NCBI GenBank assembly: GCA_009760855.2
Contig: WPIO01000007.1
Coordinates: 7,516,501-7,580,500 of the forward strand
Direction of reading: 5' to 3'
DNA length: 64,000 bases
Source: Cristatella mucedo
Taxonomy: Eukaryota; Bryozoa; Phylactolaemata; Cristatellidae
In this document: piece by piece, positions 4,202 to 14,853 of the stretch
Layout: each line of letters starts with the position of its first letter
Numbering within the stretch: the stretch's first letter is position 1
The notes under the pieces: generated by a model
Databases searched by the model: none
Told to the model about the DNA's origin: nothing
What the model saw: the letters and a program-made list of their open reading frames with translations, nothing else
Made by a program: the position numbers and the translations under genes

Positions 4202-4266
4202 CTACTGCTCTGGCGAGAATGGGGTCGGTATGAGAATTCGCGTCTGGAGTTCACGGATGAGTGGCA
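4202..4266 (-). CDS. NIPSNAP: NIPSNAP terminal exon h (stop codon)
   Basis: The last coding exon follows TTATACAG and reads [14 protein letters not shown] and then SPEQ before a TAG at 4,202-4,204. The preceding intron (4,267-5,055) is rich in CA dinucleotides. The end of the protein is at the position expected for the family. Confidence 0.93.
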
Positions 4267-13200: not shown

Positions 13201-14853
13201 TGCGCACCAGACGCCGTGTCAAGGGGGAGATCGCCTCTCAATAAGAACAGCTCACACTACAAGCACAGTGTTCGGCATCGACCATGCGGTATCGATGCCG
13301 GTTGATCAACGAATACAGATCGAAGTTCTTTCACTGACCCACAAGGCCTACCACGGCTTGGCTTCTCCATACCTAGCCAAACTGCTGCACCAGTTTCACC
13401 ATCCTTGTGCTTCCAGGTCTGTATGGACAATAAATTAGCCGTCCCATTCCTTTGCTTAAAGACCGTTGGCGCCAGAAGTTTAGCTCTGCAAGTCCTAGAC
13501 TATGGAACTCGCTTCCACGATTCTTACGCACAACTGCTCATCAGCTGCCGACTATGGCACACCCTTTCCAGCGGTCCTGAGCTGCTACTTCCATGCTGCT
13601 CACTACCTCAACTGCCTAATTCTGCTATGCTTCTCACTTTTTCTTTGCTGCGTGAGATACATTTCGTCTACTGAATGTGTACCAAAAGTCACTCAGGCTG
13701 TGAGTGAGCTATACAAAACTCCCGGATGACACCCACATAGTGGCTTTGTGGAGTTACCGACAAAGATACATTACATCGATGCAACTGCCGGAGGGAGGCA
13801 TCAGCTCTTTACTCGGGACTCTAGCTGTCTCAACCTCAGCATCTAGGCGCTCCCAGCGAATGGCACAGTAATAGCGAGAGAGGAGTCGCATGCTTAGGCG
13901 AACGTCGTGGCCCGGGATACGACGACAAAAAAGAGGGCGTTTCAGCAGCCCATGGCTGCCGAGCACGACATCGAAGCTGCCCGGAGCATCGGCTACTTAC
14001 TCGCCTCATCTTGGTCGCCGACTAGAACGGTCCAGCTTCCTTTCAGCTTGGCACCAGTGTCCTTTTGCTTCATCAGGTCGACAAATTTCTCGCTACAGAA
14101 GCCACAGCGGCACTGCAATCGCGACAGGCAGCCGGGCGGCATCGCAAAGCGAGGTACGAAAGCTTCGACGATCGAACCATCGGGCTTTTAATCTTTGCCG
14201 ACAAGACACAATCAACTTGCTGCGACGCAAAGTGGCTAAGAGCAGCAGAATCAAAAGCTCATGGGGGGCAATAACTTGAACATATAAAATGCACCTTACT
14301 AATGTCAATGCTAACAGCCAAGTCTGATTCCGAGCAGAGCCAGCAGTGCCACGAATATTACTCACAACTCTTGTATGTAGTTCAGCATGCACTCAGGCTT
14401 GACCTTGTGGACTGAAGAGACAGAACATATTTTATAATCATCTCGACAACACTGGAAAATGTCATTTCCCCGGGTGTTTGACAGTGCCCCGACCAATAGC
14501 AACTCAGAAAAAGTGGAGCACCACCACGAATGCAGATGCAGTGTGATCACGCATGGGCATGAACAAATATACATGCACCGGCATGAACGTACAAGCACAC
14601 TAACAAACATGCATGCAGATTGGTGTACGGCATCTACATCGCAAGGCCGACTGCAAAGAACTGACCCTGCAGCTCATAAACCGACTCCAGGTCTGAGAGC
14701 ACGGCTGACTGGGACTTGCTCGGTGTCTCGATCTTTTTCTGGTGAAGCAGTCGTCTGAGCCAGCCTTCATCCTCGTGCAAGTTAATAGTCTTGGAGGACT
14801 CAGCTGGAGGCTGGTCCTTCTGGACTAATCCACTTGTATGAAAATTCAGGGAG
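4202..14853 (-). CDS. NIPSNAP: NIPSNAP family protein (multi-exon, 5' exon missing)
   Basis: Eight minus-strand exons encode about 270 residues matching the whole conserved part of NIPSNAP1/2, small proteins tied to mitochondria and implicated in mitophagy signalling in mammals. CDS pieces are 14,853-14,666, 14,411-14,366, 14,092-14,001, 12,534-12,464, 10,739-10,599, 9,640-9,514, 5,139-5,056 and 4,266-4,202. Every junction is GT-AG and the phases agree throughout. Two tandem dimeric alpha-beta barrel halves are visible: the first around [22 protein letters not shown] and [10 protein letters not shown], the second around [37 protein letters not shown] and [15 protein letters not shown]. The C terminus SPEQ resembles the SPLQ end of vertebrate proteins. 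The first exon, ending in phase 2 and expected to carry a mitochondrial presequence, was not found. No internal stop or frameshift was seen, so the gene looks intact despite the repeats in its introns. Family assignment rests on remembered conservation, not a search. Confidence 0.93.
4325..4480. repeat. CA-rich low-complexity sequence in intron
   Basis: Imperfect CA, GCAC and CATG units inside the last NIPSNAP intron. A similar weaker stretch continues at about 4,700-4,800. The open frames seen here are repeat artefacts. Confidence 0.75.
5056..5139 (-). CDS. NIPSNAP: NIPSNAP exon g (YKDLQAR...GWDD)
   Basis: An 84-bp exon lies between CTGTTTCAG and GTACGTGC. It begins by completing the HLWAY codon and encodes [15 protein letters not shown] and [11 protein letters not shown]. 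It follows the longest intron (4,374 bp), which holds a minisatellite and a SINE nested in a LINE. Confidence 0.95.
5626..5872. repeat. 18-bp minisatellite in NIPSNAP intron
   Basis: The unit CCTCGTCCTTCACCTCTG is repeated about 13 times, with the central six or so copies nearly identical and the edges diverged (TGCACC and CATCTC variants). Because 18 is a multiple of three, long open frames exist on both strands (RPSPLP on plus, EAEVKD on minus). The position inside a large NIPSNAP intron makes coding unlikely. Confidence 0.9.
6655..6850 (-). mobile_element. LINE A-like C-terminal fragment
   Basis: On the minus strand a [17 protein letters not shown] block and an [18 protein letters not shown] block follow the order of the LINE A ORF2 C terminus. 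There is no 3' tail next to it. Old and partial; lies in the NIPSNAP intron f-g, sense to the gene. Confidence 0.65.
7343..8512 (+). mobile_element. LINE A 3' fragment with nested SINE
   Basis: This starts after the reverse transcriptase domain ([13 protein letters not shown] block). It runs through [27 protein letters not shown] and the C terminus with frameshifts, then the 3' UTR and tail TCTGAGGGCGCTATATCAAATG plus ATT. The 3' UTR is split at about 8,165-8,345 by a minus-strand SINE A. Lies antisense in NIPSNAP intron f-g. Confidence 0.88.
8168..8345 (-). mobile_element. SINE A copy 1 (tRNA-derived)
   Basis: Read on the minus strand it has a tRNA-like head with an A-box-like TGGCTCGCAAGG and a perfect B box GGTTCGAATCC. 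Just before the B box lies an inverted repeat with 9-bp arms (ACGACCTCG / CGAGGTCGT), placed like a long variable arm as in leucine or serine tRNAs. A body with GGCGATCCTTTATCGCC and a T-rich end follows. Inserted in the 3' UTR of a LINE A. Confidence 0.88.
8640..8775 (+). mobile_element. Degraded LINE A 3' tip
   Basis: Phrases such as GCATGCTACCCCTATGCAT, CCTTTCCAGCATATACC and GTGCCTAGGGAGAGG follow the order of the LINE A 3' UTR and tail. No coding remains are seen. Confidence 0.5.
8776..9513. other. Intron sequence, GC-rich, no gene recognised
   Basis: Part of NIPSNAP intron f-g. It is GC-richer than the surroundings and contains a G9 run near 9,420, but the short open frames here match nothing recognisable. 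Confidence 0.5.
9514..9640 (-). CDS. NIPSNAP: NIPSNAP exon f ([10 protein letters not shown])
   Basis: A 127-bp exon lies between GCTTTGTAG and GTAAAGCG. It encodes [30 protein letters not shown] and HHLW, matching the best-conserved core of the second NIPSNAP domain. It leaves in phase 1. Confidence 0.95.
10599..10739 (-). CDS. NIPSNAP: NIPSNAP exon e ([10 protein letters not shown])
   Basis: A 141-bp exon of exactly 47 codons lies between TTCTGATTTTAG and GTTTGTAT. It contains [14 protein letters not shown] and [11 protein letters not shown], two hallmark blocks of the family, and links the first barrel to the second. Confidence 0.95.
11090..11627 (-). mobile_element. LINE A 3' end with inverted 5' piece
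   Basis: From 11,090 to 11,540 the minus strand carries the LINE A 3' tail, UTR and C terminus ([24 protein letters not shown] order). At 11,541 it switches directly to a plus-strand piece of the same family's reverse transcriptase, reading [12 protein letters not shown] and FYAHDTQL, where the catalytic YADD has become YAHD. Inversion of the 5' part within one insertion is the pattern expected from twin priming. Lies in NIPSNAP intron d-e. Confidence 0.88.
11628..12352 (-). mobile_element. LINE A 3' fragment abutting the previous copy
   Basis: It begins with AAT repeats and the tail AAAGCGCCCTCAGAGAACTC, then UTR and ORF2 C terminus on the minus strand, up to the SRLDF region near 12,340. 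It directly follows the inverted piece of the previous copy. It ends about 110 bp from NIPSNAP exon d. Confidence 0.88.
12464..12534 (-). CDS. NIPSNAP: NIPSNAP exon d ([10 protein letters not shown])
   Basis: A 71-bp exon lies between CTTGTAG and GTACGATA. Joined to exon c it reads [20 protein letters not shown] and then RTDK, the end of the first barrel. It leaves in phase 0. A LINE A fragment ends about 110 bp beyond its donor, inside the next intron. Confidence 0.93.
12629..13050 (+). mobile_element. LINE reverse transcriptase fragment
   Basis: Plus-strand blocks [27 protein letters not shown] and HFYADD are the RT B-motif region and catalytic site of a CR1/L2-like LINE. The YADD box is intact, but upstream and downstream frames are broken. 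Lies antisense in NIPSNAP intron c-d and is followed by LINE B sequence. Confidence 0.88.
13290..13735 (+). mobile_element. LINE B 3' end (CR1-like)
   Basis: The blocks [28 protein letters not shown] and [12 protein letters not shown] are a LINE ORF2 C terminus distinct from LINE A. A cysteine-rich [10 protein letters not shown] region and the words ACTGAATGTGTACC and GAGCTATACAAAACTC follow. Related copies occur near 20.2, 47.2, 50.3, 53.1 and 57 kb. It may be one element with the RT piece just upstream. Confidence 0.78.
14001..14092 (-). CDS. NIPSNAP: NIPSNAP exon c ([13 protein letters not shown])
   Basis: A 92-bp exon lies between TTCTGTAG and GTAAGTAG. It encodes [11 protein letters not shown] and then [14 protein letters not shown], corresponding to the GNWNTWYGEQDQA block of mammalian NIPSNAPs. 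It leaves in phase 1. Confidence 0.92.
14366..14411 (-). CDS. NIPSNAP: NIPSNAP exon b (VHKVKPEC)
   Basis: A 46-bp exon lies between TGTCTCTTCAG and the strong donor GTGAGTAA. Joined to exon a it reads [15 protein letters not shown], matching the family block that in mammals begins with FHNVKPE. It enters in phase 1 and leaves in phase 2. Confidence 0.92.
14666..14853 (-). CDS. NIPSNAP: NIPSNAP exon a (N-terminal linker)
   Basis: The exon follows a pyrimidine-rich acceptor (TTTTTTATGCAG) and ends at CTGCAGG before GTCAGT. Its first base completes a codon from an upstream exon and its last base starts the next codon. It encodes the charged segment with [14 protein letters not shown] and ends in VYELQ, the start of the first barrel. 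The frame also stays open upstream to an ATG at 14,912, giving a hydrophobic leader without arginine. That alternative start would make about 290 residues, close to the usual 284, but it lacks a mitochondrial presequence look and ignores a strong acceptor. Confidence 0.9.

Follow-up and report, generated by a model that had tools for sequence, protein, structure and literature searches.

A conserved NIPSNAP1/2-type gene in a repeat-rich stretch of an invertebrate genome and its paralogue

Does a series of short minus-strand exons, dispersed among repeats, make up a functional gene, and if so, to which family does it belong, is it complete, and how many copies of it exist? We studied this for the window, a stretch of 64,000 nucleotides (C665:7516501-7580500) from an assembly of 572,011,866 bases in 688 contigs. 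The exons of the window gene are numbered from exon 2, and the coordinates cover exon 2 onward. Exon 2 (14666..14853, 188 nt, minus strand, as are all others) opens with one nucleotide of a split codon (phase 2) and ends at a GT donor. It is followed by exon 3 (14366..14411, 46 nt), exon 4 (14001..14092, 92 nt), exon 5 (12464..12534, 71 nt), exon 6 (10599..10739, 141 nt), exon 7 (9514..9640, 127 nt), exon 8 (5056..5139, 84 nt) and the last exon, exon 9 (4202..4266, 65 nt), which carries the terminal TAG. All seven introns are bounded by GT...AG; in the 5' to 3' direction their lengths are 254, 273, 1466, 1724, 958, 4374 and 789 nt. After the one base of the split codon, the joined exons encode 270 residues followed by TAG, just as an earlier note on this DNA had proposed (eight minus-strand GT-AG exons with matching phases, about 270 residues). 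The joined exons are open in one frame only, the other two being full of stops. Each exon by itself is short, and two of the eight have a second frame, of three, that is free of stops, so the strength of the model lies in the exon chain and not in single exons. The result is a clean, checkable gene model inside a repeat-rich stretch.

The window protein matched Pfam NIPSNAP (PF07978) with 146.3 bits (cut-off 22.3, E 3.6e-43) in two stretches, the C-terminal of which spans positions 1-102 of the 102 in the profile. NIPSNAP was the sole Pfam family matched at E up to 1, which is the outcome of the protein search that the earlier note had suggested as a check. A PDB search at E up to 0.1 yielded six distinct sequences, with 5kak (E 1.2e-11, residues 170-268) as the best; the NIPSNAP domain is of the dimeric alpha-beta barrel kind. 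A local alignment with a hand-typed human NIPSNAP1 sequence gave 122 identical residues out of 247 (E 1e-85). Five sequences were then aligned and placed in a tree, namely the window protein, a paralogue on contig C78, and human NIPSNAP1, NIPSNAP2 and NIPSNAP3A, the three human sequences being typed by hand. In this alignment the window protein was 46.4% identical to NIPSNAP1, 46.1% to NIPSNAP2 and 24.6% to NIPSNAP3A. Being closer to the hand-typed NIPSNAP1 and NIPSNAP2 than to the hand-typed NIPSNAP3A, it is of the NIPSNAP1/2 type. Thus Pfam and the alignments with the hand-typed human proteins bear out both the family and the subfamily, whose order had been described as kept to the C terminus. 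The window gene is a new member of the NIPSNAP family, an ordinary conserved gene, and represents no new kind of biology.

To determine the copy number, the assembly was searched with the window protein at E up to 1. All 16 scored matches fell on three places: the eight window exons, seven matches on C78 and one on contig C233. No third NIPSNAP1/2-type locus was found in the 572,011,866 bases with this query and threshold. Pfam NIPSNAP, searched across the assembly at E up to 0.001, marked five places of seven scored: three on C233 and one each in the window gene and on C78. On the minus strand of C233, around 4138000-4151000, lie fragments of two or more additional genes that resemble the hand-typed human NIPSNAP3A sequence (best E 4.8e-12). 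In one member of this NIPSNAP3-like cluster an in-frame TAG interrupts a stretch that the other member has open.

The second NIPSNAP1/2-type locus (C78, 239309-247406, plus strand) has eight exons matching those of the window gene. Its exon boundaries were placed manually, using tblastn matches together with splice sites and following the window model, and the independent element of support is that splice dinucleotides are present at the guided positions. Seven of the eight exons have equal length in the two copies (46, 92, 71, 141, 127, 84 and 65 nt); exon 2 measures 188 nt in the window copy and 209 nt in the C78 copy. The seven junctions all occur at the same place and in the same phase. 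Six of the C78 introns are GT-AG. The third (donor at C78:239961), whose window counterpart is GT-AG, was read as GC-AG because the frame is thereby kept; GC-AG introns are a known minor class. These conserved junctions are strong evidence, independent of RNA, that the splicing predicted for the window gene is correct.

The two copies are old. Their proteins are identical at 201 of 270 aligned residues (200 of 270 in the five-sequence alignment), and by the method of Nei and Gojobori pS was 0.77 (saturated), pN 0.168 and dN 0.19. The differences at the first, second and third codon positions numbered 61, 39 and 147 of 270 codons. This is strong evidence, again from comparison of the coding sequences, that both copies have been under purifying selection. 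When window positions 4000-30000 were compared as DNA with a 30 kb stretch of C78 on the same strand (E up to 1e-5), 42 matches were obtained. Four of them correspond to exons 2, 6, 7 and 9, in this order, and 15 others lie in window introns, none of these in the counterpart C78 intron. As the exon matches are collinear and the intron matches never fall in the counterpart intron, the exons are conserved and the introns are not. Many of the remaining matches hit several places, like dispersed repeats.

How did the two copies arise? The window and C78 proteins resemble each other more than they resemble the human proteins and are about equally distant from the hand-typed NIPSNAP1 and NIPSNAP2, which is suggestive of a duplication separate from that of the vertebrates, as judged from five sequences, three of them typed by hand. 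An interpretation that we somewhat favor is that an invertebrate lineage, probably lophotrochozoan, duplicated NIPSNAP1/2 independently of the vertebrates and that both copies were maintained by purifying selection beyond synonymous saturation. If true, this would be a hint that a two-copy division of labor in a family of mitochondrial damage signals arose more than once. The two loci could also be the halves of an old genome duplication, lineage-specific or wider, instead of products of a single-gene duplication. Their location on separate contigs, their identical gene structure and their saturated synonymous divergence would fit such an event, which we regard as the less probable course, about one chance in a few, and which is compatible with the window gene being a functional member of a pair of paralogues. 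A literature search on the evolution of the NIPSNAP family, in which papers were partly judged by their titles, yielded no paper on the subject.

The window gene had been called complete-looking, and here the two copies tell otherwise. Exon 2 starts within a split codon at the equal place in both paralogues; hence an upstream coding exon, carrying the start codon and probably a targeting peptide, is probably missing from the model. Alternatively, the gene could be complete or nearly so, with translation beginning at an ATG at 14873 and no further coding exon. This ATG is in frame and precedes the first full codon of exon 2 by 21 nt, with no intervening stop. However, it stands directly before an acceptor-like T-rich tract and AG, which ends exactly at 14854. 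In the C78 copy an acceptor-like site occupies the matching position, in the same phase, and the preceding 50 codons contain three stops and no ATG in frame. Moreover, a protein starting from 14873 would have no Lys or Arg up to residue 18, which is atypical of presequences. A start at 14873 is therefore quite improbable, and a further exon upstream of exon 2 is the preferred reading.

Candidates for this exon were sought as ATG-to-donor exons of phase 2 in the upstream sequence of both copies, over 15.1 kb in the window (14860-30000) and over 11.3 kb at C78. With loose thresholds the scan gave 26 candidates in the window and 14 at C78. The 20 best pairs of window and C78 candidate peptides were rejected, as all of them center on a recurring MHRVSMQ and its variants, which we read as a dispersed repeat. 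When the net charge had to be 3 or more and the length 45 nt or more, 4 (window) and 3 (C78) candidates were left on the sense strands, and 2 and 3 on the antisense controls. Since the controls yield similar counts, no candidate stands out statistically. A stricter scan, extended in the window to 35000, left 4 candidates in the window and 0 at C78. The exon may also lie beyond the scanned sequence, further upstream. The top-scoring window candidate, a weak one, is 19886..19962 (minus strand), reading MAQLRTLWTRGAKILSSADRPAQIA plus a split codon; its ATG is flanked by A at -3 and G at +4, it is CpG-rich (observed/expected ratio 1.21), and its donor is CTG/gtaagg. At C78 a candidate at 237664-237752 (MSGSVLARTILGCAGRACRRSGAYANAFN, CpG 1.03) was chosen by eye; it ranks third by score and has a weak donor (1.6).

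That the window gene is a decaying pseudogene which has retained its exon structure is most improbable: the in-frame TAG in the C233 cluster raises the possibility of decayed copies elsewhere in the assembly, but the eight window exons are open in one continuous frame with all splice dinucleotides intact, nonsynonymous change between window and C78 is far below the saturated synonymous change, and in the five-sequence tree the branch of the window copy is the shorter one (0.138 vs 0.223 for C78). We are highly confident that the locus is a functional nuclear gene, that it belongs to the NIPSNAP1/2 subfamily as a co-orthologue of human NIPSNAP1 and NIPSNAP2, and that it is one of two paralogues in an invertebrate, probably a lophotrochozoan. 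It would be spliced from at least nine exons, the eight identified ones and one upstream that would supply the start codon and probably a mitochondrial presequence. Its product carries two NIPSNAP domains. By its family membership the product is expected to be mitochondrial. Mammalian NIPSNAP1/2, as PMC12842286 describes, reside in the matrix or at the inner membrane, and upon depolarization they reach the outer membrane and recruit autophagy receptors. By analogy, the role in mitophagy known from mammals may apply in the animal of the window gene as well.

Which animal is this? NIPSNAP had been proposed as the best anchor for its identity, but the mitochondrial contig C688 proved better, since two of its gene blocks match lophotrochozoans. 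C688 comprises 21,008 bases and carries mitochondrial genes, of which cob and nad5 were confirmed by Pfam and the others assigned by visual inspection of the translations. In mitochondrial mode ARAGORN predicted 44 tRNAs, far above the usual mitochondrial count of 22; thus only those fitting known places were used. One block reads nad1 - trnP (other strand) - nad6 - cob - trnS(UCN) - trnT (other strand) - nad4L - nad4 - trnH - nad5. In a table of PMC2728741, the nemertean Lineus viridis has this block in agreeing order, except for a trnY between nad1 and trnP, and also has the block cox3 - trnK - trnA in common with C688. It differs in that C688 has atp6 and cox1 after cox3, and nad2 and cox2 on the other strand. 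A brachiopod, a chiton and a phoronid are described there as similar in gene order, inversions aside (PMC2728741). On this basis, and assuming that C688 and the window come from one organism, the animal is very probably a lophotrochozoan.

The reading frames of C688, inspected by eye, fit AGR as Ser. In a Pfam test with four codes, code 5 (AGR=Ser, ATA=Met) was best for cob and nad5 with the two main domains summed; the N-terminal main domains scored slightly higher under code 4, and the margins were small. The invertebrate mitochondrial code is thus slightly favored, as supporting and not decisive evidence. C688 also contains an apparent direct duplication at about 11.6-14.8 kb, with identical open frames 2115 bases apart, and these frames recur near 3 kb in inverse orientation.

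The surroundings of the gene are rich in repeats. A tRNA promoter-like box, GAGGTCGTGGGTTCGAATCC, occurs at 8268-8287 (minus strand, 0 mismatches), inside the 4.4 kb NIPSNAP intron, and at 17210-17229 (plus strand, 1 mismatch); such boxes occur in tRNA-derived SINEs. The repeat piece GCAAATGTAAAGTGCCTAGAAAGAGAT was found at 11 places in the window with up to 3 mismatches (0 expected), among them 8443-8469 and 11136-11162. Two of the 11 copies lie in NIPSNAP introns, and the piece is perhaps the end of a LINE. The largest NIPSNAP intron further holds an 18-base tandem repeat (15 copies, 5592-5864), which lies within open frames on both strands. A Pfam scan of 10 of the 47 window ORFs of at least 100 amino acids gave one match above the cut-off, a reverse transcriptase fragment at 42471-42803 (plus strand, RVT_1, E 1.7e-7). 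In the window, Rfam at gathering scores gave no match and ARAGORN in bacterial mode predicted no tRNA.

Known members of the family that compare with the window protein include the short bacterial NIPSNAP proteins. Four PDB chains (5kak, 1vqs, 2ap6, 5k9f), which are bacterial and from intronless genes, align with its residues 170-268, but they are only 112-126 residues long, about one domain. NIPSNAP3A/B belong to the same family and have their likeness in this genome in the cluster on C233, whereas the window protein is identical to the hand-typed NIPSNAP3A at only 59 of 240 aligned residues. With vertebrate NIPSNAP1 and NIPSNAP2 it has the order to the C terminus in common, with an identity of about 46% to either of the hand-typed human sequences, and here as there two paralogues exist per genome. 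The N terminus, however, hardly aligns, and the window and C78 proteins are more similar to one another than to any of the human proteins, so that neither copy can be named NIPSNAP1 or NIPSNAP2. This old paralogue pair can be set beside the vertebrate pair of NIPSNAP1 and NIPSNAP2 as a small natural comparison.
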